Of a DNA stretch of 64,000 nt, positions 6,861 to 47,313 are shown piece by piece (the first letter of the stretch is position 1; every line of letters begins with the position of its first letter). Origin of the DNA: Vulcanimicrobiota bacterium (GTDB taxonomy: Bacteria; Vulcanimicrobiota; Vulcanimicrobiia; Vulcanimicrobiales; Vulcanimicrobiaceae). The notes beneath the pieces were generated by a model. That model had not been told where the DNA came from, ran no database searches, and saw only the letters and a program-made list of their open reading frames with translations. The stretch spans positions 25,169-89,168 of the forward strand of contig JAQBPK010000054.1 in assembly GCA_028287565.1 (NCBI GenBank), written 5' to 3'. A program made the translations under genes and the position numbers.

Positions 6861-7154
6861 TCAGCGGCGACGCCCCGTCGTCTCGGCGAGCCGCCGTTCG
6901 ACCTTGCGAAGCCGCCGGTCCAAGTCGTCGAATCGCTCGTTCAGGGACGAGTGCTCGCCGAGCGCGAGGTGGAGCGGGTCGATCCCCAAGGCGTTCGCGA
7001 TCCGCACGCCGAGCACCATGCTGGGGTTCTTGATCTGCCCGGCTTCGATCTGGCGAAGTGCACCCGGCGACGCGCCGACCGCCGCTGCGAGGTCCGGGAT
7101 GTTGAGCGCCTTCTCTTCGCGGATGCGGCGCATGCGCTCGCCGATGGTTTCCAC
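6861..7154 (-). CDS. XRE-family HTH transcriptional regulator
   Basis: 97 residues. The N-terminal half is a typical HTH_3 fold (MRRIREEKALNIPDLAAAVG, then ALRQIEAGQIKNPS); the C-terminal half is a charged coiled coil (LNERFDDLDRRLRKVERRL), likely for dimerisation. GTG 7154 directly follows the TAG of the upstream gene, so they are co-translated. It probably binds the TTGCAA repeat operator beyond 7560 and autoregulates the operon; that link is inferred from position. Confidence 0.85.
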   Translation of the reverse strand: METIGERMRRIREEKALNIPDLAAAVGASPGALRQIEAGQIKNPSMVLGVRIANALGIDPLHLALGEHSSLNERFDDLDRRLRKVERRLAETTGRRR

Positions 7155-8388: not shown

Positions 8389-9609
8389 TTAGGACGCCTT
8401 CCAGAACTCCGCTTCCACACCCAACTCATAGAACGACTGAACGAGGCAGCATAGATTATGGCAAAGGATTTTAGCGAGAAGCTCGTTGACCTGAGCAGCC
8501 GGCGACTTCGACCGGATGCGCGTCCCGAACTTAGCCTTGATCATGGAGAAGGTCGTCTCGACGTTCGACCGTTTGTGGTAGTGCGCGAGGAACTCCTCGC
8601 GGCGGTACATGTAGCAGAAGTACATACGCTGCCACAGCGACCCGTCGCCCTTCGAGTTCGGGGGAACCACGTTACTCTTGAATGGGATCAGCGGGAAGGC
8701 GCGAGCGTCGTCGATAGCGGCGAGGTTCCTCTTGCTCATGTACGCCTTGTCGGCGGAGAGCATCTCGACGCCGAAGCCGCGTCGGACGGTCGTGTCGAGG
8801 AGCGCGGGTAAATGGAGCGTGTCGGCGGAGTCGGGTCCGTAGTTCTCCGTGATTTTCACGGCGGTGACGGCGTTTGTTTTCGTGCCGATAACGACGTGCG
8901 CTTTGAGCCATTTCGCCTTCGACATTTCGCGCCCGTACTTGGCGCTGAACCACCGATGATAGTCCGACGTGGTAAAGCCGGACGAGTCGATCGCAAAGTC
9001 CGTTTCCAGCGCGGCGAGCGGGACGGCGCTTTGCTCAATCAGCGCGGTGAGAATCGGGGTGAGGTCGGGGTTCTCCAGCGCGTTAAAAATGGAATTGTAG
9101 TGCGGAGCGCGGTCGATGTAGCCTTTGTCGGCATATCCCCGCAGGTCGCACATGGCGCGACGCCCGGACGTTCCGCCGTAGACCTTCATAACCGCGCAGA
9201 ACACCGCGTCCGCGAGCGGGATGCGGGGACGGCCGCGCTTATAGATCGGATTGTCGATTGCACAGCACAGGTCGCGCAGCATTGCGGCGACGCGTTCCTT
9301 CTCGTTGACCTGCGCGGCATTGTACGCGGACCATTCCTGGCGGTACGTGAGCCGCAGTTGCTCCGTCACGGTGGATCCATCCGGCGCGGTCGTTTGTCGG
9401 CGCACGGTGTACTCGACCGCGAACACGTGCTTGCACGGCTTGGCGCGCTCTTCAAAGTCCGGGCACGTGCAGGTCGTGCCGCGCCGTTCGGTCGGGTCAA
9501 CGACGTACGTGCCACTTCCGCCCTGCGACGGGACGAGCCACAGCTCGCCCTTCTGGCGAAGCGTCTTGGTCGTTGCGATTTCGAGTCCGCGCTGCTCGCG
9601 TCCGTCCAC
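8389..9609 (-). CDS. DDE transposase (IS4-type) with N-terminal SWIM zinc finger
   Basis: 406 residues. N-terminal SWIM motif CTCPDFEERAKPCKHVF (C-x-C...C-x-H) near residues 46-62. The catalytic core has a first Asp in FAIDSSGF, a second in LSADKAYM, and YHKRSNVETTFSMIK, which matches Y-(2)-R-(3)-E-(6)-K, the YREK signature of IS4-type transposases. GTG 9609 has GGAGG upstream. The gene is intact. No terminal inverted repeats or target duplications could be found at either side, so mobility of this copy is uncertain. Confidence 0.88.
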   Translation of the reverse strand: MDGREQRGLEIATTKTLRQKGELWLVPSQGGSGTYVVDPTERRGTTCTCPDFEERAKPCKHVFAVEYTVRRQTTAPDGSTVTEQLRLTYRQEWSAYNAAQVNEKERVAAMLRDLCCAIDNPIYKRGRPRIPLADAVFCAVMKVYGGTSGRRAMCDLRGYADKGYIDRAPHYNSIFNALENPDLTPILTALIEQSAVPLAALETDFAIDSSGFTTSDYHRWFSAKYGREMSKAKWLKAHVVIGTKTNAVTAVKITENYGPDSADTLHLPALLDTTVRRGFGVEMLSADKAYMSKRNLAAIDDARAFPLIPFKSNVVPPNSKGDGSLWQRMYFCYMYRREEFLAHYHKRSNVETTFSMIKAKFGTRIRSKSPAAQVNELLAKILCHNLCCLVQSFYELGVEAEFWKAS

Positions 9610-9625
9610 TGTATTCCCTCCGATA

Positions 9626-9708
9626 TATCCTTAAAGATAATATATCAGAGAGAGGTGCGAGCGTCAACGCTTTACGGATACCTTGACAATGTATCCCTAA
9701 AGATAATA
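9626..9708. promoter_or_regulatory. Duplicated near-palindromic box between transposase and zinc-ribbon gene
   Basis: Two 17-bp boxes, 9626-9642 and 9692-9708, identical at 16 of 17 positions (TATCCyTAAAGATAATA), 66 bp apart. Each is nearly palindromic (TATC..TTAA..GATA). TTGACA at 9683-9688 lies just before the second box, whose GATAAT/TAATAC could serve as -10 for the plus-strand gene at 9719. Likely operator plus divergent promoters. Confidence 0.5.
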
Positions 9709-9718
9709 CCCTGGGCGC

Positions 9719-12924: not shown

Positions 12925-13818
12925 ATGGCCGACGCGATCGTGCTCGTCGAACCCGCACTGCCGGCTGAAAAACGCGCTTATAAAATAAGCGACGGACGCA
13001 GGCCGACCGATCCCGAGCTGATCGACCTCTGGCTGCACGGTCGACCGCGCAACACCGTCACGGCCTACCGACGTGACGTGCGCCGGATGCTCGACTTCAT
13101 CGGCGTCCCGATCGGGGCCGTCCGACTCGTCGACCTTCACGCCTTCGCTGACTCGCTCGTCGGCGAACCTGCGACACGCAAGCGCGTGCTGAGCGCGACG
13201 AAGAGCCTACTGAAGTTCCTGGCCACGGCCGGCGCGATCGAGTACAACGTCGGCGCAGCGCTACGCGTGCCAAAGGGCCGCGACGCCCTGGCGGACCGGA
13301 TCCTCACCAAGGCCGACACGAAAAAGTTGCTCCGCTCGGGGCGACGGCCGCGCGACACCGCGCTACTGCGCCTGCTCTACGAGGGCGGCTTCCGCCGCGG
13401 CGAGCTCGCATCGCTGCGCTGGGTCGGAGTCGTTGCCGGCGAGGGATGCGCCTACGTCACCGTCGTGGGTAAGGGTTCGAAGACCCGGACCGTCCGCATC
13501 TCCAGCGACACGCTGGCCGCGCTCAACGCTCTCCGGGGCGAGGCGGCTGACGATGCGCCGGTCTTCACCGGACGACGCGGTGCCGCGCTCTCGGAGTCGC
13601 AGGTCTGGCGCGTCGTTCGCGGCGCTGCGAAGCGGGCGGGGCTGACCAAGCCGGTCAGTCCGCACTTCCTGCGACACGCGCACGCCTCGCACGCGCTCGA
13701 CGCCGGCGCCCCGATCGCGCTCGTCCGCGACACGCTCGGCCATTCGAGCGTCGCGGTCACGGACCGCTACCTTCACGCACGGCCAACCGAATCGAGCGGC
13801 AAGTACCTGCGGCTCTGA
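12925..13818 (+). CDS. Tyrosine recombinase / phage integrase
   Basis: 297 residues with an N-terminal SAM-like core-binding domain (about 20-105) and a catalytic domain. All catalytic residues are visible: Arg in GGFRRGELASL, Lys in VVGKGSKTRTV, HFLRHAHASH (H-x-x-R-H), GHSS, and the nucleophile Tyr in TDRYLHARP. Overall it is XerC/D-like in length. Expected to integrate the phage at a tRNA gene, but it lies 50 kb from the right attachment site and at least 12.9 kb from the left one, which is unusual. It may instead resolve multimers, with another integrase outside the window. Confidence 0.92.
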   Translation: MADAIVLVEPALPAEKRAYKISDGRRPTDPELIDLWLHGRPRNTVTAYRRDVRRMLDFIGVPIGAVRLVDLHAFADSLVGEPATRKRVLSATKSLLKFLATAGAIEYNVGAALRVPKGRDALADRILTKADTKKLLRSGRRPRDTALLRLLYEGGFRRGELASLRWVGVVAGEGCAYVTVVGKGSKTRTVRISSDTLAALNALRGEAADDAPVFTGRRGAALSESQVWRVVRGAAKRAGLTKPVSPHFLRHAHASHALDAGAPIALVRDTLGHSSVAVTDRYLHARPTESSGKYLRL

Positions 13819-13897
13819 CCATCGCGGCGCGCCGTAAGATTTCGGTGCGGTTTCTGTCCGCCCGAATGTCCCCACCCACCGACACTGAGAGGTGCCT

Positions 13898-14194
13898 ATG
13901 TCCTGGTATGTTCAATGCGCCGGCAAACCCGGTCCCGCGCTCGCTTCAGAGATCGAAAAGCAGTTCGATAACGCTCGGCGCGGCTGCGCGAACAATCCCG
14001 CCGAAGTCGCCGCGATCAACGCCCAAGCGGCACTTGTCGTAGTCGGCCTCCAGAATCTCACGAGCGACAAGGCCGCGGTCGCGATCTTCGCGTCCGGCCA
14101 CTACGTCCCGCGCAGCGAGTACAGCGGCGGCGCTACGCCCGAGCAGTTTCGCTGCGAGACGAAGGTCGAAACGCTCCTCAATTGGGCTGACTAG
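13898..14194 (+). CDS. Hypothetical phage protein (98 residues)
   Basis: ATG 13898 with GAGAGG upstream; the in-frame GTG 13892 overlaps that site. Helix-strand pattern with IEKQFDNARRGCANNPAEV and a C-terminal ASGHYVPRSEYS. No domain recognised. It opens the overlapping run of small genes before the terminase. Confidence 0.65.
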   Translation: MSWYVQCAGKPGPALASEIEKQFDNARRGCANNPAEVAAINAQAALVVVGLQNLTSDKAAVAIFASGHYVPRSEYSGGATPEQFRCETKVETLLNWAD

Positions 14195-14296
14195 CCTCAA
14201 CCCGTCCGCCGCCCAGCGCGCGCTCACCACGTCATCGACCGATGGGCCGACGACGCGGGGCGGCGGTCTTCACCTTTCGTCCGCGAGAAAGCACCG

Positions 14297-17893: not shown

Positions 17894-17935
17894 ATGTCCA
17901 AACACGCCGCGACCGCCACCGGATTGTGCGCGTGA
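17894..17935 (+). CDS. 13-codon leader peptide coupled to the portal gene
   Basis: ATG 17894 carries the best ribosome site in this interval (CGGAGG, spacing about 5), and its TGA overlaps the portal GTG start as GTGA. The portal gene has no ribosome site of its own, so translation probably reaches it by termination-reinitiation. Encodes MSKHAATATGLCA. Confidence 0.5.
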   Translation: MSKHAATATGLCA

Positions 17936-19359
17936 GCGCCCCCACGCTGTACGGCCCCGACGGTCGCCCGCACGAGATCCGCAAAGCGGGAGTCGGCCCG
18001 ATGATCGCCGGCGCTGGTGCCACGTCGACCGTCTCGTCGATCATCGCGTCAGGCCAGCGCTCGCGCAACTACGACCTCGACGTGTACGCGATGCTGTCGG
18101 TGAAGCACCCGACGGTCTACGCCTGCATCACGCTGATCGCCGACGCCGTCGCCTCCGAAGGTTGGGAGATCGTCCCGCGAGGCCACCGCGGCGCCCAGCC
18201 GGCAAACGCGCAGACCGACCCCCGCGTCGCCGCCAATATCGCGGACGCCAACGACTTTTTCGCCATGGCGTCGCCGCACGAGACGGACCGCGCGCGAAAC
18301 CGGGGCATCGCCGCCGACCTCAAAACGTTCGGCTTCGCGGCGCTGCGCAAGAAGCGCGCGAACATTGAGGGCAAGCCCGTGCTCGCGGCGCTGGAGCGCG
18401 TCGACCCGCGAACGATCTCGATCCGGCTGAACGCCGCAGGAACAGCCGTCGACTCCTATCTGATCAAACGTCGCTCGAACGGCGCGCTCGCGACCTCCAC
18501 AAGCATGACAGAGATCGTTCCGCCCGCCGACATCGTGTTCTTCACGAGCTCCGGTGGCGACCCGATCACCGGCTTCACCTCGCCGCTCGAAGCGCTCGAC
18601 CTCACGCTCGCGACGGACCTCGCGCAGCGCCGCTATCGCGAGACGTACTGCCGGACCGGCGCGAAGCCCGGGCTCGTGCTGACCTCGGACACGTACGACG
18701 AGGACGCGTTCAAGGTCACCGAGGAGCAGATCCTCAAACAGCGCACCGGCGCGGCGAACGCGTACAAGACGCTGCTGCTGCCGGGCGGCTGGAAGATGGT
18801 CAACGTCCCGAGCGCCGGCGGCGACGACGCCGACTTCGTCGAGGCCACGGGGCTCAACCGCGAGGACATCACCGGCGTCTACCGCGTCCCGATGGGGATG
18901 GTGGTCTTCGCCGGCAACGCGCTGGGTAGCGGCGGCAAGGGCGAGGATCGCGAGTTCTTCGAGCGCTACGGCGTGCTGCCGGTCGAAGAGCTGATCTACG
19001 AGCGACTCACGATCTCCGTGCTGCGTGACGAGTTCGGCATCACGGACCTCGAAATGGTTCCCAAGCGCCGCAACGCGATGCGCGCCGACCGGCTCGACGA
19101 CGCGCTCAAGATGGTGCAGGTCGGCTTTGCGGGCGATGACGTTCGGACGTTCCTCAACGCGCCGCGCACCGAGCTGCCGGGCATGCAGACGCCGCTGTTC
19201 ATCCGCGCCGGCAAGAGCATCGCGGAAGACGAGCCGATCGATCCCGCCTCCGCAGGCGCAGCGACCACGACGGGCACTTCCGCCGACGCCGCGCAAGCGC
19301 AGCACGAGGTGGCCCAGAAGGGCGCGGGGCGCTTTCGCCGGGGACGCCAAGGCTACTGA
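17932..19359 (+). CDS. Portal protein (HK97-like)
   Basis: 475 residues. GTG 17932 is chosen because it overlaps the leader stop; GTG 17926 is the alternative. Portal-type features: an N-terminal region leading to VKHPTVYACITLIADAVAS, a central FTSSGGDPITGFTSPLEALDL, and NREDITGVYRVPMGMV near residue 315. It forms the dodecameric DNA channel at the prohead vertex. The last residues (AGRFRRGRQGY) look unnatural, and the reading continues better in the +1 frame as the MuF-like protein, suggesting a frameshift at a GGGG run (19326-19329). Confidence 0.9.
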   Translation: MSAPTLYGPDGRPHEIRKAGVGPMIAGAGATSTVSSIIASGQRSRNYDLDVYAMLSVKHPTVYACITLIADAVASEGWEIVPRGHRGAQPANAQTDPRVAANIADANDFFAMASPHETDRARNRGIAADLKTFGFAALRKKRANIEGKPVLAALERVDPRTISIRLNAAGTAVDSYLIKRRSNGALATSTSMTEIVPPADIVFFTSSGGDPITGFTSPLEALDLTLATDLAQRRYRETYCRTGAKPGLVLTSDTYDEDAFKVTEEQILKQRTGAANAYKTLLLPGGWKMVNVPSAGGDDADFVEATGLNREDITGVYRVPMGMVVFAGNALGSGGKGEDREFFERYGVLPVEELIYERLTISVLRDEFGITDLEMVPKRRNAMRADRLDDALKMVQVGFAGDDVRTFLNAPRTELPGMQTPLFIRAGKSIAEDEPIDPASAGAATTTGTSADAAQAQHEVAQKGAGRFRRGRQGY

Positions 19360-23015: not shown

Positions 23016-24137
23016 ATGCCCGAGATCAACGACCTCAGCGTGAAGGGTATGGACGAGCTCACGTTCGTCTTCACTGAATTCGGCGGCCAGAAATGGCAGC
23101 AGCGCAATCAAGACGCCATTACGCTCATCACCAAGGGCGGCCCCGAAGCTGACACCGCGAAATCAAAGTCGTTCCTCGGCGACCTGTGGAGCAAGGTCGC
23201 TGGCAAGGCCGCTCCGGCGGAAGCAACCGCGGCCGCTCCCGCCGCGACGACCAAGGCTGACGCCGAGGGTGGCGACCTCGCGACGACAATCGCCGAGAAC
23301 GCAGCCGACTGGGCCGCGCGCTCGATGTCGTGGGATGCGCTCTCGGCGCTGATCTGCCAACTGAACTGCGACCTCTCGATGGTCTTCCAGTCCGGCGATG
23401 CGTTCACCGACGACGAGAAGAAGATCGCGGCGCAGCGCTGCATCGAAGCGTTCGGGGCCGCGGCGTACAAGCTGCTCCCGATGCTGCTGGGCAACGTCGA
23501 GATCGGTCTCGTCGACGACGTCTCCAAAGCGGGCGCACGGCACTCCAAGAAGGACGCGGAGCGCATCAAAAAGATCGGCGAGCACGCGGGCGCGATCAAC
23601 GATCTGCACGGCCAGCTGATGGATGCCGAGGATGCGAAGGACGGCGCTAGCGACGAGGCGACGGAGAAGGGCGCGACCGCGCAACCGGACGCCGTTGCCG
23701 CAACGATCGCGCCGAGCACTGCTCCTCCAGCCGAAACTGTCGCATCGAAGGCTGACGCCGCGCAACCGCCCGCACAGCAACCGCCCGCGGAACCGGCCTT
23801 GGCTGCGATGCTGAAGGCGACGCTCGACGCGTTCACCGCAACGCTGCAGCAGTCGGTGACGACGCAGCTCGAAACGCACGCGAAGGCGTTTGACGATCGG
23901 TTCGTCGCGCTCGACGACAAGATCGCGAAGGCGACGGCCGCGAAGCCCGAACCGTCGCCGCTGCAAGCGTCCGTCGCGGCGATCAAAGCTGCGCAGCTGC
24001 CGACCGCGCCAGCGGGCGCGCCCGCGCTCACGACGACCGGCGAGTACAAGGCGGGTGCGCTGATCGAGCTTCCGCCGGTCCAACACGACGGATCGATCCG
24101 CGGCATCCTCAAGGCGAAGCGCGAGCAGCAGGCCTAG
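23016..24137 (+). CDS. Scaffold-like capsid assembly protein
   Basis: 373 residues, Ala/Lys/Glu/Pro-rich. A helical domain (about 95-190, SWDALSALICQLNCDLSMVF) is followed by a long low-complexity and coiled region (ATLDAFTATLQQSVTTQLET) and a C-terminal patch with GSIRGILKAKRE. Position between protease and capsid and its composition fit a scaffold. ATG 23016. Confidence 0.65.
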   Translation: MPEINDLSVKGMDELTFVFTEFGGQKWQQRNQDAITLITKGGPEADTAKSKSFLGDLWSKVAGKAAPAEATAAAPAATTKADAEGGDLATTIAENAADWAARSMSWDALSALICQLNCDLSMVFQSGDAFTDDEKKIAAQRCIEAFGAAAYKLLPMLLGNVEIGLVDDVSKAGARHSKKDAERIKKIGEHAGAINDLHGQLMDAEDAKDGASDEATEKGATAQPDAVAATIAPSTAPPAETVASKADAAQPPAQQPPAEPALAAMLKATLDAFTATLQQSVTTQLETHAKAFDDRFVALDDKIAKATAAKPEPSPLQASVAAIKAAQLPTAPAGAPALTTTGEYKAGALIELPPVQHDGSIRGILKAKREQQA

Positions 24138-24176: not shown

Positions 24177-24205
24177 GAGAGCGTTCCTTGAGCGCTCTCC
24201 TTTTT
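24177..24205 (+). terminator. Intrinsic terminator before the capsid gene
   Basis: GAGAGCG (24177-24183) pairs with CGCTCTC (24193-24199), then C and TTTTT. Likely partial termination, letting capsid be transcribed or processed at a different level. Confidence 0.7.
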
Positions 24206-24231: not shown

Positions 24232-25272
24232 ATGGAAATGGTCACCCAGTTCATCACGAAGGCCGCGTACGACACCTCGGTCGGCGCGAACGCGATGCGT
24301 CAGGATCTCTCCGACGTCATCACCGCGCTCGAAACGCGCGAACGCCCCGTCTCGCAGGGCGCGCCGCAAATCGACGTCGGCAACACCACGCACCAGTGGC
24401 TCGAACAGGGCCGCAACGGCGTGGCGGGCAACGGCGGCTCCCCGGTCGCCTCGTACGCGGAAGCCGCGACGCCCAACACGGCCGCCAAAGCGCCCGTCAA
24501 ACCGTCCAACAAGGTCGCGCACGTCGGTCTGACCGCTCAGGTCTCCGACACCGTCGCGGCCACGTGGACGCGCGGCGGTGCGTTCACGCTTCAGCTCGGC
24601 GACGAAGTGAAGCTCCTCACCGAAGCAATGGACGAGCAGATCGAGCTCGCGTCGCTCGACTGCCTGGACTTCATCGAGTGCCTGCACGTCTCGGGCGATT
24701 CGGCCTCGGGTGCGTTCGCGGGCGGCCAGCCCGACGGCATGATCAAGTGGATCACCGCCGGCGGCACGGTCGTCGTCACGGGCGGCACGAGCGGAACGCC
24801 GGTCAACATGGCGCTCTCGTTCATCCAGAAGGGCGCGCGTCAGGCGCTCGAATCGCACGCGCCGGCAGTGGACACGATCCTCGTGCCGCCCGAGCTGATC
24901 TACGACATCAACTCGTACGTCGGCAACGGCGCGAGCCGTCCGATCACGGTCATCGCAGGAAGCGGGCCCAACGGCCTCGGCAACCTCGTGGCGGGCAACG
25001 GAACCGTCGGCTGGGTCAACACGGGCCACGGCCTCGCAGAAGTGAAGGTCGAGCCCGATCTCTCGCCGCTGTTCAACCCGCTGATCTCGCAGTGCCACGT
25101 GATCATGTACGCCAAGCGTCTCGTGAAGCACGGCAACCTGATCAAGTTCGGCAGCGTGCCGCTCGCCAAGACCGGCACGTCGGTGCAGGTCATGGTGAAC
25201 AACGTGTTCACGCAGGAATACCGGATCCCCAAACACGCGATCCTAATTCCCAACGTCCAGTCAGCATTCTGA
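24232..25272 (+). CDS. Major capsid protein
   Basis: 346 residues; ATG 24232 with AGGAGGG upstream, one of the strongest ribosome sites here. The N-terminal AYDTSVGANAMRQDLSDVIT and ETRERPVSQG, and the central LVPPELIYDINSYVGNG, resemble SU10-type (DUF5309-like) HK97-fold capsid proteins. Synteny with protease and scaffold supports the call. Confidence 0.8.
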   Translation: MEMVTQFITKAAYDTSVGANAMRQDLSDVITALETRERPVSQGAPQIDVGNTTHQWLEQGRNGVAGNGGSPVASYAEAATPNTAAKAPVKPSNKVAHVGLTAQVSDTVAATWTRGGAFTLQLGDEVKLLTEAMDEQIELASLDCLDFIECLHVSGDSASGAFAGGQPDGMIKWITAGGTVVVTGGTSGTPVNMALSFIQKGARQALESHAPAVDTILVPPELIYDINSYVGNGASRPITVIAGSGPNGLGNLVAGNGTVGWVNTGHGLAEVKVEPDLSPLFNPLISQCHVIMYAKRLVKHGNLIKFGSVPLAKTGTSVQVMVNNVFTQEYRIPKHAILIPNVQSAF

Positions 25273-32326: not shown

Positions 32327-35300
32327 GTGGGAAACGTCGACGAGAAGCTCACCGTTACCGTCGCTACACCCGGAACCGATGTCGCTGCGAAGGCGATCGA
32401 AAACTTCGATCAGCGCCTGGCCGCCCTTGAGCAGGCGTACATAAAGACGACAGCCGCCGGAAAAGCGCACGCCGACAGTCACAAGTCCACTGCGGACGCG
32501 ATGCAGCACGGCACGAAGGCCGCGCACGAGCACGTCGACGCGATGACCAACGTCGCCGAGCACGTCAGCATCGCCTCTAAGGGCCTCGGCGTCCTAGGCC
32601 TGGAGGCCGACGCCGCGGCCGTCAAGGTCGACGGACTCGCCGCGGTGGTGCGCGGACTTGGCGCGGCCGCGCCAGAGCTGCTCGCCATCGGCGCAGTGGT
32701 CGCCATCGGCGCGGCCGCGTTCTCGTTCCTGAAGGAATCGGTCGACGAAGCGGCGCGCTCGGAGCGCGAGCTCGTCACGATCGGCGCACTGCTCAAGAAC
32801 CAAAGTGTCGCGGATTGGAAAGAGCAAACCAAAGCCGTCGACGAGTACGCGGCAAATATCGCGCGCACGAGCGTCTTTCAGAAGACGGACGCGCTGGCCG
32901 GTATTCAGGCGATGCTCACGGCGGGTTTGTCGTACAACGACGCTATCCGCTCGCAGTCAGCCGCGATGGAGTTGGCAGTCGCGACGACGACAAGCCTCGC
33001 ATCTGCCGACCAAATGCTGGCCGCCGCATACGACGGCCGCACGCGCACGCTTGTGAAGCTCGGCCTCATCACGAAGGAAGAGGCTAACAACGGAATCCTG
33101 TACGAGACGATTCTTCAACGTATCCACGACCGCATGGGCGGATCTGCAGCGGCTGCGCTCGATTCGTTTTCGGGTAAGGTGCAGAACCTCGCGAACCTCA
33201 CGGGGCTGCTGAAGGAAGAGTTCGGCACCGCGCTGCTGCCGGTGCTCGGTGCGTTCGAAGACGCGATGCGTGGCGGCGTCGTTGCGATGCAGCCGCTGGC
33301 GGACGAGTTCCGAAGCTGGGCGCAACAGAATCTCCCGGAACTAAAACTGGGCGCGCAGGGCTTCGGCGACCTTATGATCGGCCTGGCGGAGCGCGCTCTG
33401 CCGGCCGTTGAGCACGGCACTCAAATCGTCATCGACGAACTCGCCAAGCTCGGTAAATCTTTCGGTACATCGGATGACCCGATCGACAAGTTCAAGGCCG
33501 GCCTCCACGACGCGGGCGAAGCGGCAAAGTCGGTAAAGACGACCATCGACGCAATCCATAGCGCGCTCGCCCCGCTCGTCGAAGCCATGAAATTGTACCA
33601 CCAATGGCAGGAGGCCGGTAACGAATCGGCCCGCCAGTTCGGCGTGGTCCTCAATCCGGCCGACTTGGGTCAACAGACGCAAGCCCTCATGACGCTTAGC
33701 GGCTGGGTGAAATCGATCGCGGACTACTTCGGTGCCGCTACTGAGGGCGCAGGGAAGTTCCTGGACCGCTTACAGGGCATCACTGATGCACAAAGGGAAC
33801 TGGCGCGCGTTAAATTCTTTGAAGAGCACGGCGGTTCGCTTTCGCCCACCGCCTCGGATGCCGGCGAGGGCCGCGCCGCGCACGCCGCATCGCAGAGCGC
33901 GGCGAACGGCTGGAACAACTATCTTATCGAACAGGCGAAGCGCCTCGGGATCGACCCCGCTTTCGCGATGGCGATCAAGCGTGCCGAATTAGGCGGCTCC
34001 TATGACGGCAGCGCTACGTCGCCGGCCGGCGCGATCGGCCCGATGCAGGTTATGCCGGGCGAGCATGGCCAACCGCGCGTCATCGGCGGCGTCTCGTACA
34101 CCGAAGCCGACCTCCGTGACCCCGCGAAGAACGTCGTCGCCGGTCTCACCTATCTCGCAGAGCAGCTGCAGCACTTTCATCGCGACAAGTGGCTTGCGGC
34201 GGCGGCGTACAATGCCGGACCGGGCGCGGTCGACAAGTTCGGCGGCATCCCGAAATTCTCCGAGACGCGCGACTATGTTTCAAAGGTCGCGATGTTCATG
34301 GGCGAGCGCGGCATCCCGGGGCGTGAGTTCCTGGGTCGCGAGACGCCGCACACGGACAAGTCGCCACGGGTCATTCCCGGCGCGAAGCACGGAACCCCCG
34401 AAGGGTACGATCCGCCGGCGCCGAGCGAGGTTAAGCGCGACAAGGTTGATCCGTTCACTCAAGCGGCAAAGCAGCTGAAGGCCGATCTCGACGCGATTAC
34501 GCGCTCGGAGGAGGACTACGCGAAAGCCGTTGCGCTCGCAGGCGGCGCCGATGAGCGCGCCATCGCGACGCTCGACTTAAAGAAGAAGACCTCGGCGGAC
34601 GCGGCCGAGGAAATCGCCATCCTGAACAGCCACGTCAAAACGCAGCAGGAGCTCCAGCCGCGCCTCACCGAGCAGCTCAAGGACGAGGACCAAGCGCGCC
34701 GCGCGGCGATCGCCTCCCTCAATGCGTTCAATGCCGCCCACAAGGGCACGAAGCTCAGTAACGACGACAAAGACGAACTGAAGCGTCTCGAAAAAAGCAA
34801 GACAGAGACCGCGGCCGAGTACGACCGCACGCGGCACTACATCGAAGAGAATAACGCGCAGATCGAAGCGATGCTTCAGAAGATCGGCGCGCTCGTACCA
34901 AAGACATACGAGTACAAAGCCGCGCTCAAAGCGCTGTCTGGACAGCTCGTAGACCAGCAGCGACAGTTTGCCGATGAAGCCGCAACGTACGGTCAGTCGC
35001 TGGAAACGCAGCGCGCTTACTGGGAGCAGCGTGTTGCCGGCGCGACGAGCGCGGCGAAGGCGACCGAGTACGCGCTCAAAGTCGCAGATGCCGAGCAAGC
35101 GATCAAACGCGCCAACACCGATCTCGTCACGCACAAGGCGGTCAAGGACCAGGCCGTCCAGGAAGAGCTTGCGACGTATGGACTGAGCCTCGAAGCGCAG
35201 ATCGCGTACTACACCGCGCGCTTCTCGAATCTCAAGCGCGAGAACAAGCTCGAATGGGACGAGTACGCAGCGCTCTACGACAAAATCCAGGACCTGCACA

Positions 35301-36748
35301 AGCAATTCACCGAGCAATGGCAGACGCGCGAGTCCGGCTGGCTCGACGGGATCATCAAGCATACGACCTCACTGCGCGATACGCTTAAGAACATCTGGTC
35401 GACGATCTTCGACGATCTCGCAAAGTCGTTCGAGCAGAAGATCGTTCACGGGGCGATGTTCACGCGCCTCAACGACATGATCGCCAAGGCGTTTGGGCTG
35501 CCGACGGCGTTCGGAGCGGAATCGCCCAACGGCGGCGACCCGTCGCAAAACGCTCTCACGGCGTCAACGAAAGCGGTGACCGCCGCGACGACGACGCGCA
35601 CGACCGCAGAGACCACGGCGACGACCGCGACGCAAGCGGCTACCGCTGCGCTGGGCGGCTTCACGACGGCTCTCCAAGTCGCCGCGAGCGCGGCGGGATC
35701 GGGATCGGCGAGCGCGCTGAGCCTCGGCGGCGGCAAGGACGGCCTGAACATCGGGTCGATCGCGGGCAAGGCGATTGCGCCCGGCACCGGCGTTCCGACC
35801 GACGTGACGCAAATCGCCGGCCGGAACATCGACCTCTCGCTGCCGGGTCAGTCGTCGATGCCCGGCGGTGCCGCGGGCGGCTGGGTGAACGGCGGCGGCC
35901 TCAACTTCTCCGGCGCCGGCGCGATGCAAGGACTGATGATCGCGCAACTCGTCAACGGCATGACCGGCGGGAATCCGATCTGGGGCAGCGTCGGCGGTGC
36001 AATTGGTGGTGCGTTCTTCGGGCCGGTCGGCTCCGCGGTGGGCTCGCTCATCGGCGGGCAATTCGGCCCGCACTGGGGACCGGCGTCGAACTATCCCGAT
36101 CGCAGCGACCCGTCCTACAAGCCGTGGCTCGACGCGTACAACAACGGCTCGCCCAGCGACGGCGGGTTCAAGCTCGAAGCCGCGCTCAAGAACATCAACC
36201 CCGCTACGCTTTCGGGGCAGATGCTCGCCGACTACAACTACCTCAAGGGGCTGGGCGGCTCCAACGGCGACCTCGGTATCAAGAACGAGCACAACGGCGT
36301 CTTCACGTTCGGATCGGGGCTGACGGCATCGGTCGCGGACTTCCGCGCCGCGGTCGATCGGTTCTCCGCCGCGAGTTCGTCGCTCCAGTTCTCCTCGCTG
36401 TTCACGATCACGCGCAGCTACCCGGATCCGAACATCGGGCACCTCTCGGCAAACGGCACGTACACGCCGCAGACGATCACGGTGAATCCGAACGGGGCTT
36501 CGTCGACCGGTAGCGGCTCGACGGGAACCGGCGGCGGTTCCGGTGGCGGCGGTACCGCGAATCGCGCCGCGGACGTGCACGTACACGTCGCGGTCCAAGG
36601 CAACGTCATCGGCGCGACGCCCGAAGACCTCGGCAACGCCATTGCCCCGGCCGTCGCGACCGCACTCAACCGGCGCAACGCGAACCTCACGCCGGGCGGC
36701 GGCACGCAGTGGAGCGGCGCGGGCTCGTCGCGGTACGCGCGCGTCTAG
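32327..36748 (+). CDS. Tail tape measure protein with lytic transglycosylase domain
   Basis: 1473 residues; GTG 32327 with GGAGGG upstream. N-terminal coiled and hydrophobic region (LLAIGAVVAIGAAAFSFL near 120). Residues about 530-655 form an SLT-type transglycosylase: AELGGSYDG with the likely catalytic Glu, AIGPMQVMPGEHG and AAAYNAGPGAVDKFGG. Long coiled coils follow (820-980), then Ala/Thr-rich and Gly-rich hydrophobic stretches (IGGAFFGPVGSAVGSLIGG). It sets tail length and locally digests peptidoglycan during DNA entry. The family size implies a tail of roughly 200 nm by the usual length ratio. Confidence 0.92.
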   Translation: MGNVDEKLTVTVATPGTDVAAKAIENFDQRLAALEQAYIKTTAAGKAHADSHKSTADAMQHGTKAAHEHVDAMTNVAEHVSIASKGLGVLGLEADAAAVKVDGLAAVVRGLGAAAPELLAIGAVVAIGAAAFSFLKESVDEAARSERELVTIGALLKNQSVADWKEQTKAVDEYAANIARTSVFQKTDALAGIQAMLTAGLSYNDAIRSQSAAMELAVATTTSLASADQMLAAAYDGRTRTLVKLGLITKEEANNGILYETILQRIHDRMGGSAAAALDSFSGKVQNLANLTGLLKEEFGTALLPVLGAFEDAMRGGVVAMQPLADEFRSWAQQNLPELKLGAQGFGDLMIGLAERALPAVEHGTQIVIDELAKLGKSFGTSDDPIDKFKAGLHDAGEAAKSVKTTIDAIHSALAPLVEAMKLYHQWQEAGNESARQFGVVLNPADLGQQTQALMTLSGWVKSIADYFGAATEGAGKFLDRLQGITDAQRELARVKFFEEHGGSLSPTASDAGEGRAAHAASQSAANGWNNYLIEQAKRLGIDPAFAMAIKRAELGGSYDGSATSPAGAIGPMQVMPGEHGQPRVIGGVSYTEADLRDPAKNVVAGLTYLAEQLQHFHRDKWLAAAAYNAGPGAVDKFGGIPKFSETRDYVSKVAMFMGERGIPGREFLGRETPHTDKSPRVIPGAKHGTPEGYDPPAPSEVKRDKVDPFTQAAKQLKADLDAITRSEEDYAKAVALAGGADERAIATLDLKKKTSADAAEEIAILNSHVKTQQELQPRLTEQLKDEDQARRAAIASLNAFNAAHKGTKLSNDDKDELKRLEKSKTETAAEYDRTRHYIEENNAQIEAMLQKIGALVPKTYEYKAALKALSGQLVDQQRQFADEAATYGQSLETQRAYWEQRVAGATSAAKATEYALKVADAEQAIKRANTDLVTHKAVKDQAVQEELATYGLSLEAQIAYYTARFSNLKRENKLEWDEYAALYDKIQDLHKQFTEQWQTRESGWLDGIIKHTTSLRDTLKNIWSTIFDDLAKSFEQKIVHGAMFTRLNDMIAKAFGLPTAFGAESPNGGDPSQNALTASTKAVTAATTTRTTAETTATTATQAATAALGGFTTALQVAASAAGSGSASALSLGGGKDGLNIGSIAGKAIAPGTGVPTDVTQIAGRNIDLSLPGQSSMPGGAAGGWVNGGGLNFSGAGAMQGLMIAQLVNGMTGGNPIWGSVGGAIGGAFFGPVGSAVGSLIGGQFGPHWGPASNYPDRSDPSYKPWLDAYNNGSPSDGGFKLEAALKNINPATLSGQMLADYNYLKGLGGSNGDLGIKNEHNGVFTFGSGLTASVADFRAAVDRFSAASSSLQFSSLFTITRSYPDPNIGHLSANGTYTPQTITVNPNGASSTGSGSTGTGGGSGGGGTANRAADVHVHVAVQGNVIGATPEDLGNAIAPAVATALNRRNANLTPGGGTQWSGAGSSRYARV

Positions 36749-37005
36749 CGGACCACGGGTTTCCCGCAGAAGCAGATGCGGCGTACGGGCCCGCCGTCGT
36801 TCACTTGGCGGTGCCCGTCTTCGCATAGGATCGCGGGCTTCCACGCGGCGACCAGCGCAGCGAGTTGCGCGTGCGTGAAGCCGCCATCGAGCGTTATCTC
36901 GTTCGCGTCCGGACTTGCGAGATAGACGTGACCGCCCGCGCCCGCGTGCTCGCCGAGCGCGTTTACCGCGGCGACTAGCTCTTCCGAAAACTCCGTCGTC
37001 TCCAT
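36745..37005 (-). CDS. Small Cys/His-containing protein, antisense to its neighbours
   Basis: 86 residues, ATG 37005, overlapping the tape measure 3' end by 4 bases. Coherent sequence (GGHVYLASPDANEITLDGG) ending in CEDGHRQ...RRICFCGKPVVR, a possible zinc site. The ribosome site sits very close to the start, so the start is uncertain. A lone reverse-strand gene within the tail operon may be a moron. Confidence 0.5.
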   Translation of the reverse strand: METTEFSEELVAAVNALGEHAGAGGHVYLASPDANEITLDGGFTHAQLAALVAAWKPAILCEDGHRQVNDGGPVRRICFCGKPVVR

Positions 37006-37010
37006 TCCTC

Positions 37011-37036
37011 AGCCGTTCGACCGCGAGCGGCTTTTT
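37011..37036 (+). terminator. Intrinsic terminator upstream of the tail protein gene
   Basis: AGCCG-t-TCG pairs with CGA-g-CGGCT (37011-37032), followed by TTTTT. Confidence 0.6.
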
Positions 37037-44478: not shown

Positions 44479-44991
44479 ATGACACCCTCTTCGGGCGCTA
44501 CGGCGCACCCGATCGTGACCCTCGTGCTCCCACAGGTTCAGACCGCGATCAATATCGCGATCGGGTTCTTCGTGCTGCTCGCCACCCTCACGGCCTCGGC
44601 GTTCCTGATCCCCAAAGCCCGGCTGATCCGCGAGCGCAACGATGCGCAGGACTGGGTGAAGCGGCTCGAAGGCCGGCTGACCGCGCAGAGTTCGGACCTC
44701 GCGGCGGTGCTGGCGAACGTTGAGGCGCTACGCGGCGAGATCGCGGGGATGCGCGATGTCATCGCGGGCATGCACTCCGAGGCGCTGGTGACCCGCAAGA
44801 CGCTCGTGGTGGCACTTCGGTACGTCGCTGCGCTCATGCTGTTCATTCGCTCGCGCCGGCCGGTCGGCGAGACGCCCGCGATCCCCGCCGAAATCAGCGA
44901 TGGCGTGCTCGACGAGATTCGCGCGCAGGAGCTGGGGCACACCGCCGACGTTCAGGGTGCCAGCGGCATGACCGCTCCGGTCGCGCCGTGA
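44479..44991 (+). CDS. Membrane-anchored coiled-coil protein (lysis cassette)
   Basis: 170 residues; ATG 44479. One N-terminal TM segment (AINIAIGFFVLLATLTASAFL) then a coiled coil (LAAVLANVEALRGEIAGMRDV) and a second hydrophobic stretch (VVALRYVAALMLFI). Overlaps the endolysin gene (GTGA). Could be a holin or an inner-membrane spanin subunit. Confidence 0.6.
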   Translation: MTPSSGATAHPIVTLVLPQVQTAINIAIGFFVLLATLTASAFLIPKARLIRERNDAQDWVKRLEGRLTAQSSDLAAVLANVEALRGEIAGMRDVIAGMHSEALVTRKTLVVALRYVAALMLFIRSRRPVGETPAIPAEISDGVLDEIRAQELGHTADVQGASGMTAPVAP

Positions 44992-45470
44992 CCAAGCTCA
45001 GCCCGAACTTCTCGCTCGAAGAGCTGACGCACAGCGACACCGCGGCCGTGCACGGAATCGACAACGCGCCGCCGGCCGGATCTGTCGAGCACCTTCGGCT
45101 CGCGACGCTGGCGGTCTACTTGGAGAAGGTGCGGCGCATCCTCGGCGGTCGCGCGATCCGGATCCACGACGCCTACCGCTGCCCGCGCGTCAACGCGCTC
45201 GTGGGCGGCGTCCCGCACAGCGCGCACACCGAGGGCTTCGCGGCGGACTTCGACGTCGCGGGGCAGACGCCGTACGAGACGGCCATGCTCCTCGATGCGG
45301 CTGCGCACCGCGGCGAGCTCGTTTTCGATCAGCTCATCCTCGAGCAGCTGCCAGCTCCGACGTGGGTTCACATCGGCCGGCGGCTGCACAGCGAGGACAA
45401 CCCTCCGCGTCTTCAGCGGCTCACCAAGGCCGCGGGCGGCGCCTATCTCGACGGGATCGTGAAGCCATGA
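44988..45470 (+). CDS. Endolysin, M15-type peptidase
   Basis: 160 residues, GTG 44988. NFSLEELTHSDTA at the N-terminus, SAHTEGFAADFDV with His and Asp zinc ligands near residue 75, and the final WVHIG near 125 are the M15 (D-Ala-D-Ala carboxypeptidase-like) zinc site. Cuts peptide cross-links in peptidoglycan at lysis. No signal peptide, so it needs a holin. Confidence 0.88.
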   Translation: MTKLSPNFSLEELTHSDTAAVHGIDNAPPAGSVEHLRLATLAVYLEKVRRILGGRAIRIHDAYRCPRVNALVGGVPHSAHTEGFAADFDVAGQTPYETAMLLDAAAHRGELVFDQLILEQLPAPTWVHIGRRLHSEDNPPRLQRLTKAAGGAYLDGIVKP

Positions 45471-45754
45471 ACATCGCCGCCGCCCTGAACCGGCTCAATT
45501 CGCATCGCGTGTTCGGAATCGGCTTGGGCACCGCGTTGTCGTCCGTCGCGATCCTCGCCGCCGACCACAGCGTCTCGCAGCAGATCGCGCACGTCGCGGC
45601 CTCGCACGGTGCGGTCGGTCCGATCGCCGCCGATGTCGCGGGCGCGTGGTGGTCGACGGCCGTCGCGTCCGCGCAGGCTGCGCTTCCGCCCGCCATCATC
45701 GCAGCCGCGTTCGGACGCCCGCCCAACGTGCCCGCCGGTCCGGTGAAGCCGTGA
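45467..45754 (+). CDS. Holin candidate (95 residues)
   Basis: ATG 45467 overlaps the endolysin stop. Two moderately hydrophobic segments (VFGIGLGTALSSVAILAA and AALPPAIIAAAF) around a small polar loop. Its place after endolysin suggests a holin or related lysis protein. Confidence 0.55.
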   Translation: MNIAAALNRLNSHRVFGIGLGTALSSVAILAADHSVSQQIAHVAASHGAVGPIAADVAGAWWSTAVASAQAALPPAIIAAAFGRPPNVPAGPVKP

Positions 45755-46002
45755 AGTGGCTTCTGCTCGCCGTCGCGCTCGTCGTGCCGCCGTCCGCGAT
45801 GCTCGCGGCGCGTCCGCTCGACGGACCCTCCGTTCATGCCGGAACCTGGCACGTCGAGTACTGGGAAGCGGGCGGCGAGTTCACGCTGCGCGTTTCGGAG
45901 GCTGCGTACCGTGCGGACGTCGCGGCCGGTTCGTGCGGCCCGCGGTCGCACGTCTCGCTGTGGCCGCGCTCGCGCACCGTCAGCGTGGTCTGCCAGGTCT
46001 GA
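45751..46002 (+). CDS. Small secreted protein at end of lysis cassette (83 residues)
   Basis: GTG 45751 overlaps the previous stop (GTGA). Signal-like N-terminus MKWLLLAVALVVPPSAMLAA, then a beta-rich domain with two Cys (GSCGP, VVCQV). Could be periplasmic, but no lipobox is present. Confidence 0.55.
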   Translation: MKWLLLAVALVVPPSAMLAARPLDGPSVHAGTWHVEYWEAGGEFTLRVSEAAYRADVAAGSCGPRSHVSLWPRSRTVSVVCQV

Positions 46003-46017
46003 ACGAACGGGTCGCGG

Positions 46018-46089
46018 ATAACGGAACAGGTCCACGCGCGCAGCCGTCATAACGGAACACTCGTCCTCGTCGAGCTACCGATAACGGAA
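46018..46089. repeat. Three ATAACGGAA boxes, 31-32 bp apart
   Basis: ATAACGGAA at 46018-46026, 46049-46057 and 46081-46089. The centre spacing is about three helical turns, so all would lie on one face of the DNA. Confidence 0.65.
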
Positions 46090-46238
46090 ACCGTATGGGG
46101 GTAGGGTCGCCGCCCGGCACACCTGTGCCAACCTCGCCCCCGCATCCCTAGCGCCGCGCCGCTCCACGCGGTACGATGGTCGCGAGGCGGCGGCGTATCG
46201 CGGCGACGCGATCCACACCCGACGTCGTCGCCTCCACG

Positions 46239-46267
46239 TTGACAGCCGCCGCGAATCGCCGTACGAT
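46239..46267 (+). promoter_or_regulatory. Sigma70-type promoter TTGACA-17-TACGAT
   Basis: Consensus -35 TTGACA at 46239-46244, exactly 17 bases, -10 TACGAT at 46262-46267. The same -10 is used by the switch promoter at 41731. No gene starts directly downstream. Confidence 0.65.
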
Positions 46268-46273
46268 GTGCGC

Positions 46274-46402
46274 GCTGGGGCGAGCGCCTCGAAGCCCTGG
46301 CGCCGAACCGGACCGCGGTTTTAGGCAGCGTCGGTCCCTCTCGCGCTCGGATACCGGCACTAGCGAAACTCTGGCCGTCGCCTTCACGGGCGGCGGCCTT
46401 TT
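46274..46402 (+). ncRNA. Candidate small RNA (about 130 nt)
   Basis: Bounded by the promoter at 46239-46267 and the terminator at 46373-46402. No acceptable reading frame lies inside. Local stems are visible (GCGCT with AGCGC near 46272-46287; GGACC with GGTCC near 46310-46337). Its 3' end overlaps no gene; possible targets are unknown. Confidence 0.45.
46373..46402 (+). terminator. Intrinsic terminator, 10-bp stem
   Basis: GGCCGTCGCC (46373-46382) pairs with GGCGGCGGCC (46389-46398) with one T-G pair, loop TTCACG, then TTTT. Confidence 0.7.
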
Positions 46403-46408
46403 GCCGTT

Positions 46409-46474
46409 TCAGCGCTCGTGCAGGAACAGCGCCGTCCGGCGACCTGGTTCGACGAGGTAGTACGCAATGCTCAC
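46409..46474 (-). CDS. 21-residue hypothetical protein, last of leftward cluster
   Basis: GTG 46474 overlaps the upstream stop (GTGA). Encodes MSIAYYLVEPGRRTALFLHE-type sequence of normal composition. Very small; supported by coupling alone. Confidence 0.35.
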   Translation of the reverse strand: MSIAYYLVEPGRRTALFLHER

Positions 46475-46659
46475 GAGCGCGTCTCGCCCGTTGAGTCGGG
46501 CGGCAAGCGACGTCGCCGTGACGGCCGCTCCGGCACCATCACGCGCTCGACGAGCCGCCTCTCGCTCTCGGTGGGCTCGTATCGGTTGACGGCGAGCATG
46601 CTCTCGCGTGGGTCGCGCGTGCGGTCGCCATCGAACGGCCCGCCGACAAGCTCGATCAC
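46471..46659 (-). CDS. Small phage protein with ELVGGPFDGD motif (62 residues)
   Basis: GTG 46659. IELVGGPFDGDRTRD at the N-terminus is a motif I associate with a common small phage and host protein family of unknown role. A 10-codon frame (46656-46688) links it to the next gene upstream through overlapping stop/start codons. Confidence 0.6.
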   Translation of the reverse strand: MIELVGGPFDGDRTRDPRESMLAVNRYEPTESERRLVERVMVPERPSRRRRLPPDSTGETRS

Positions 46660-46684
46660 GGCACCTCGGTCATCCGCTGCTCGG

Positions 46685-46861
46685 TCATCGCGGCGTCACC
46701 AACTCCTCGACGCGCGTGCACTGTTCGAACGTCACGTCCGCGAAGAACGGCGGCTGCTTCGCGACCCACGTCTCGGCGGCTTCTTGCGATTCGAAGGGGC
46801 CGTGCACGCGCTCCACGTCCGCGTCGTAGTCCGGCGTCATCTCGACGACGACCCAGGTCAC
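46685..46861 (-). CDS. Hypothetical protein (58 residues)
   Basis: GTG 46861 overlaps the upstream stop. TWVVVEMTPDYDADVERVHG then PFESQEAAETWVAK, a small alpha/beta pattern seen in phage proteins of unknown role. Confidence 0.6.
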   Translation of the reverse strand: MTWVVVEMTPDYDADVERVHGPFESQEAAETWVAKQPPFFADVTFEQCTRVEELVTPR

Positions 46862-47055
46862 AGCTTCGGCCTGCGCTGGTTCGCGCCGTCCGTCCAGCGC
46901 AGCGGTGGTCCCACCCGTGCAAGCCGCGCGTTCGCGGCTGCGACCATGAGCGCGGTGCTGCGCGAAAGGCTGTCGTTGAGGTCGGCCATTCCGATCAAGA
47001 ACTTCCGCCACCGGCGGCGCTCAGACGGCGACAGGCGCTGGCGCGGGAACATCAT
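46858..47055 (-). CDS. Hypothetical basic protein (65 residues), possibly leaderless
   Basis: ATG 47055. A TAGGAT -10-like box at 47062-47067 (reverse strand) would place the transcription start on this ATG; no -35 or ribosome site is evident. Basic helical protein (RRRWRKFLIGMADLNDSL). First gene of a four-gene leftward overlapping cluster. Confidence 0.55.
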   Translation of the reverse strand: MMFPRQRLSPSERRRWRKFLIGMADLNDSLSRSTALMVAAANARLARVGPPLRWTDGANQRRPKL

Positions 47056-47103
47056 GCCGCCATCCTACCATGACCGCACGCCCGCCGCCGCGAACCCGGC
47101 CAT

Positions 47104-47313
47104 ATGCGATCCGACGAATGGAGCGATCTAGACGCGAGCGCGAGGGGGCGCGTGGAGGTGGCGCGCGATGCGTTAGTGGCCGCCGTCGGTGGAGGCGATC
47201 CGCTGAACTTCGACGAGGACCATATCGCGCTCGCGGTCGTGCGGGCCCTGTTCCCGGGCGAAGAACGGTGCGGGCCCGATTGCGGCGTGACGCACGCGCA
47301 CTACACGGTCTAA
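47104..47313 (+). CDS. Hypothetical protein (69 residues)
   Basis: ATG 47104, divergent from the leftward cluster. Acidic helical N-terminus and C-terminal GEERCGPDCGVTHAHYTV with Cys and His that may bind metal. It opens a rightward run reaching 49458. Confidence 0.6.
   Translation: MRSDEWSDLDASARGRVEVARDALVAAVGGGDPLNFDEDHIALAVVRALFPGEERCGPDCGVTHAHYTV

Follow-up and report, generated by a model that had tools for sequence, protein, structure and literature searches.

A promoter-to-terminator unit without a gene, and its predicted small RNA, behind the late operon of a probable temperate phage

A stand-alone promoter-to-terminator unit that contains no gene was found behind the late operon of a phage. 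As judged from its promoter and terminator, it is predicted to give a non-coding RNA of ~129 nt (46274–46402, plus strand), with a start 7 nt past the −10 hexamer. The likeliest use of such a unit would be as a source of a small regulatory RNA acting in trans. We give even chances to the explanation as a whole, a stand-alone unit read by host polymerase into a non-coding RNA. That the RNA is made at all is rather probable; a regulatory function for it is less likely than not, though a fair possibility. The promoter, the terminator, the absence of a gene and the convergent context are read from the DNA itself, and from these we infer transcription, its timing and every functional step. All coordinates refer to the window, the whole 64-kb stretch that was analysed (G000:C327:25169-89168), which comes from a 4.8-Mb draft genome in 399 contigs.

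A host-type promoter and a strong terminator

The −35 hexamer TTGACA (46239–46244) and the −10 hexamer TACGAT (46262–46267) lie on the plus strand with a spacer of 17. Together they match 10 of 12 consensus positions, which bears out the near-consensus promoter proposed in an earlier sequence-only reading of this DNA. Full sigma-70 matches of the form TTGACA-N16-18-TANNNT occur twice in the 64-kb window, versus 0.06 expected from shuffled sequence; the second copy adjoins a transposase gene.

The host genome served as an outside test of the promoter pattern, with the reversed pattern as a control. TTGACA-N16-18-TANNAT had 13 matches in the window's own genome (G000), compared with 2 for the reversed pattern, and 105 versus 7 when summed over 11 genomes of the genus. 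All 13 matches in the window's genome were intergenic, outside coding frames. One of them precedes a tRNA-Ala gene and another overlaps an SOS-box-like palindrome. TACGAT recurs as the −10 hexamer in several other TTGACA-promoter matches of the genus. These counts are good evidence that 46239–46267 is a working host-type promoter. More generally, TTGACA-17-TANNAT would mark likely transcription starts in the genus and could aid in finding further RNA genes.

The other end of the unit is formed by an intrinsic terminator hairpin on the plus strand (46373–46398), GGCCGTCGCC-TTCACG-GGCGGCGGCC, which is followed by TTTTG (46399–46403). Its stem has the 10 pairs previously ascribed to it, one of them G-U, and an 11th pair, U-G, closes the loop. 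The −10 hexamer ends 105 nt before the stem, again as first described. In a stem-based scan, this hairpin alone in the window combined a stem of 10 bp or more with a T-run, compared with 0.07 per shuffle. Hairpins with at least 8 pairs and a T-run numbered three in the window, this one included, versus 0.5 per shuffle, and all were intergenic. Folded alone, the hairpin has a dG of −23.3 kcal/mol (z −5.6), and with its TTTT it is the strongest terminator of the window. The T-run is short, with only four U in the tail. A simple terminator scan missed the hairpin because it requires 5 T; the stem-based scan recovered it.

Between 46002 and 46373 there was no other strong terminator, so the hairpin probably serves the late operon as well. 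Promoter and terminator are both rare, and it is very unlikely that chance placed them on the same strand within 105 nt.

Coding potential and structure of the predicted transcript

No ATG, GTG or TTG was found in 46274–46372. About 3.0 start codons are expected per 99 nt of the window, and 5% of its 99-mers are free of them; among shuffles of this TG-poor stretch, 29% were start-free too. The missing start codons argue against coding, but are no signal by themselves. Two frames cross the stretch, one of 94 aa on the plus strand (codon score −25.5) and one of 79 aa on the minus strand (−13.6). Both scores are negative, and the claim that no acceptable reading frame lies between promoter and terminator therefore held. 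An own host-type promoter (46239–46267), an intrinsic terminator (46373–46398) and the lack of a coding frame, all looked for as marks of a small-RNA gene, were found here.

The product had also been predicted to be structured, and this did not hold. Without the terminator, the body folds like shuffled sequence, with z between 0.0 and +1.0 (0.02 for 46274–46358, 0.13 for 46274–46372, and +1.0 for 46280–46380). What had looked like a structured product is the G+C content plus the terminator. A predicted unpaired linker, ACUAGCGAAACUCU, occupies 46359–46372.

A search of Rfam 15 gave no family match to the unit at the gathering score. When the threshold was relaxed, the best match was terminator-like (ncS037, E 1.6), and the others were weaker. 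A tRNA search of the stretch found none.

Phage context and relatives

The phage genes of the window include those for a portal (17932–19359; PHROG 2662, E 2e-33), a major head protein (24232–25272; weak PHROG match) and a tape-measure-like protein with a lytic domain (32327–36748). The major head protein shares 50% and 45% identity with genes of two further contigs from the host family. Other genes encode a tyrosine integrase (12925–13818; Pfam PF00589, E 5e-30) as well as a repressor-like regulator (6861–7154), and the phage is therefore most likely temperate.

The plus-strand late operon runs up to 46002. It contains an endolysin gene (44988–45470, plus strand; PHROG 894, E 1.9e-30) and ends with the gene of a small protein with a signal-peptide-like start (45751–46002, plus strand; codon score +14.8), for which a family search gave no match. 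The three neighbours of the endolysin gene (44479–44991, 45467–45754 and 45751–46002) show a codon signal. None of them had a convincing family match, which makes a part in lysis no more than likely. The unit had been placed after "lysis genes", and this stands for the endolysin, the one lysis gene identified, but less firmly for its neighbours.

Beyond the unit lies a convergent minus-strand gene of 58 aa (46685–46861), whose clear codon signal (+22.4) contrasts with the score of −17.1 for an overlapping plus frame of 237 aa (46418–47131). The boundary is therefore convergent, as had been stated, and no plus-strand gene has the unit as its leader; the same scores ruled out an mRNA leader for 46418–47131.

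DNA homologues of the stretch were found neither in phage records, nor in 98 related genomes, nor in 117 genomes of the class, and an exact-core search of viral contigs gave no copy. Two partial matches were treated as chance. The best DNA match (L011; 76% over 62 nt) falls among long open frames, probably within a coding gene. The −10 region gave an 18-nt match in L008, where TTGACA is missing at the corresponding distance. Searching the viral contigs by terminase, capsid and two other genes yielded no related phages. Endolysin relatives in the genus were rejected for comparison: the copy in G007 adjoins host-like genes, and the one in G008 has unrelated flanks.

Head genes like those of the window recur on two contigs from other genera within the host family. 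One of these head-gene relatives has another contig (L061, G024:C180), on which tape-measure and tail genes related to those of the window are found. There, the tail genes are followed by the relative's own small late genes and, close behind, by a minus-strand integrase. The last late plus frame (13405–13896) and the minus frame (13965–14216) are separated by a 69 bp gap, and this convergent junction has neither a TTGACA-type promoter nor such a terminator. Since a syntenic related prophage is without the unit, the unit looks like an accessory stretch, a lineage-specific and moron-like acquisition; the comparison comprises a single syntenic relative, whose frames were picked by eye in an ORF list.

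How the unit might work

The host RNA polymerase with its housekeeping sigma factor would start near 46274 from TTGACA-17-TACGAT. Transcription would stop at the intrinsic terminator (46373–46402), leaving the ~129-nt non-coding RNA. The same terminator would close the late-operon transcription coming from 46002, and would shield the convergent minus-strand genes. From a promoter of the host type one would expect expression to be independent of phage activators, and so perhaps to occur in the lysogen. In the likeliest use, as a small regulatory RNA in trans, the linker at 46359–46372 could be the seed.

A more specific version of this reading is a functional lysogen RNA, made by the host polymerase and relying on the host Hfq, that targets messages of the host or of superinfecting phages. 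The host belongs to a high-GC bacterial lineage on which little work has been done. In this version, which we consider unlikely, the unit would be a small-RNA moron unrelated to the described families. Hfq (PF17209) is encoded in all 11 genomes of the genus, and ProQ (PF04352) in none of them. The RNAs bound by Hfq in enteric bacteria need about 7 U in the tail. The long U tail expected of an Hfq client is absent here, as the unit ends in UUUUG. Duplex energies with the translation-start regions of the window were no better than those of shuffled RNA (68 of 100 shuffles were as good), and antisense targeting of the phage start regions was rejected, the duplex scan having given no signal.

The label "phage small RNA" can thus be kept in part. 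A gene-less promoter-to-terminator unit, in a probably temperate phage and at a convergent boundary, is what was found; for a regulatory role, the searches gave no homologue, the folding no structure beyond that of shuffled sequence, and the duplex scan no antisense target.

Alternative explanations

The main rival to a regulatory RNA is the idle transcript of a gene-less cassette, and it fits almost as well. The unit would be a moron-like cassette without working cargo, in which promoter and terminator are real, the short RNA is functionless and the gene was lost or never present. The terminator would have been retained because it ends the late operon. An idle RNA agrees with a body just as structured as shuffled sequence, with the failure to find sequence conservation in the genomes, phage records and viral contigs searched, with the syntenic prophage in which the convergent frames stand 69 bp apart without the unit, and with the missing target signal at the start regions of the window. 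However, it is difficult to see why a phage would keep a near-consensus promoter that has nothing to drive, and the 99-nt body holds neither a start codon nor a recognisable gene remnant. We regard an idle cassette as possible, but would not bet on it.

Alternatively, only the terminator matters. It would end late transcription 371 nt past the last gene, and the promoter hexamers would be a chance match. The hairpin does lie on the correct strand, and no strong terminator comes sooner after the operon. A chance match is difficult to reconcile with the rarity of full TTGACA/TANNNT pairs, expected 0.06 times in the window, or with the position of such matches outside genes in 13 of 13 cases in G000, and this explanation appears quite improbable.

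An attenuator of the kind known from lambda is less probable still. In the lambda pR'-6S RNA system, a strong promoter is followed by a terminator ~100–200 nt on; a short RNA is made by default, and an antiterminator permits read-through to distal genes. The layout here is alike, with a strong promoter, ~100 nt and a nearby terminator, and G000 holds another promoter-terminator leader close before a plus-strand frame (L047). But the unit comes after the late genes, not before them, and the same-direction genes directly downstream of lambda pR' are replaced by minus-strand genes. The next 650 bp are antisense to minus-strand genes (46471–47055), with a plus frame that is non-coding.

A short mRNA for a small protein is hardly credible: the 94-aa and 79-aa frames that cross the stretch either begin outside the transcript or are read from the opposite strand, their codon scores are those given above, and the transcript body has none of the three start codons.

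Comparison with known systems

Small RNAs in prophages of E. coli O157 occur at late-region intergenic sites with convergent genes (PMC4104026). The EcOnc RNAs lie between moron genes and a phage frame, and AgvB antagonises GcvB (PMC4104026). The transcriptome of a Salmonella prophage gave nine candidate non-coding RNAs, a counterpart of OOP included (PMC7067206). By analogy, the unit may work like these RNAs.

Like AgvB/EcOnc01 and relatives (PMC4104026), it is a candidate gene for a short, apparently lineage-specific RNA that a temperate phage carries in an intergenic late-region site with convergent transcription. In contrast to the unit, which is predicted from sequence and has no Rfam match, the AgvB/EcOnc01 RNAs were found bound to Hfq, and AgvB has GcvB as its target (PMC4104026). 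OOP RNA of lambda and BTP1 is likewise a short phage RNA with a promoter of its own and an intrinsic terminator at its end, but OOP is antisense to cII (PMC7067206), whereas the unit overlaps no gene. The opposite-strand frame at its position (46148–46387, minus strand) has the codon score of −13.6.

The unit also resembles a phage moron, as a stand-alone promoter and terminator at the edge of the late genes, in an accessory stretch that is absent from the same place in L061. A moron carries a protein gene; the unit has none.

The unit belongs to no described RNA family, phage small RNAs as a kind being already known. If transcribed, it would extend phage small-RNA genes, described in enteric bacteria, to a distant bacterial lineage. 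The precise promoter and terminator make the candidate RNA easy to test.

Other elements in the window and the genus

Between the last late gene and the promoter, there are three exact copies of ATAACGGAA on the plus strand (46018–46026, 46049–46057 and 46081–46089), spaced 31 and 32 bp apart, i.e., three helical turns. The window has no further copies (0.16 expected), and the rest of the genome lacks the paired arrangement. The triplet looks like a putative protein-binding array. A 36-nt direct repeat with 72% identity (46157–46192 and 46247–46282, plus strand) contains a second TACGAT at 46172; a good −35 is absent ahead of the first copy.

Several other promoters were seen in the genus. A promoter of the form TTGACAAG...GGTCTACCAT, or close to it, recurs with strong similarity at one locus (L045, 1501–1529) and its genus counterparts; its spacer is palindromic and rich in C/G. 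This promoter is present in most genus genomes, at about one copy each, and is probably a conserved regulated promoter. The spacer of a TTGACA promoter in L040 (1501–1529) holds a CGAACATATGTTCG-like palindrome, resembling SOS boxes of the Gram-positive type. Similar spacer palindromes are found in TTGACA matches of G001, G003, G004, G007, G008, G009 and G010. In L047 (1502–1580), a promoter and a hairpin with TTTTCTTTTT within ~15 nt precede a plus frame from ~1605, a likely attenuator leader.

Within the late operon, a terminator-like hairpin with CTTTTT (24177–24199, plus strand) separates the gene 23016–24137 from that of the major head protein. A second plus-strand terminator-like hairpin (37012–37031) adjoins a minus-strand gene of 86 aa (36745–37005), which is inserted in the late operon in a moron-like manner. 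A transposase gene (8389–9609, minus strand; DDE_Tnp_1 with SWIM zinc finger) lies in the early region of the phage, and promoter-like sites on both strands (9639–9712) are found just upstream of it.
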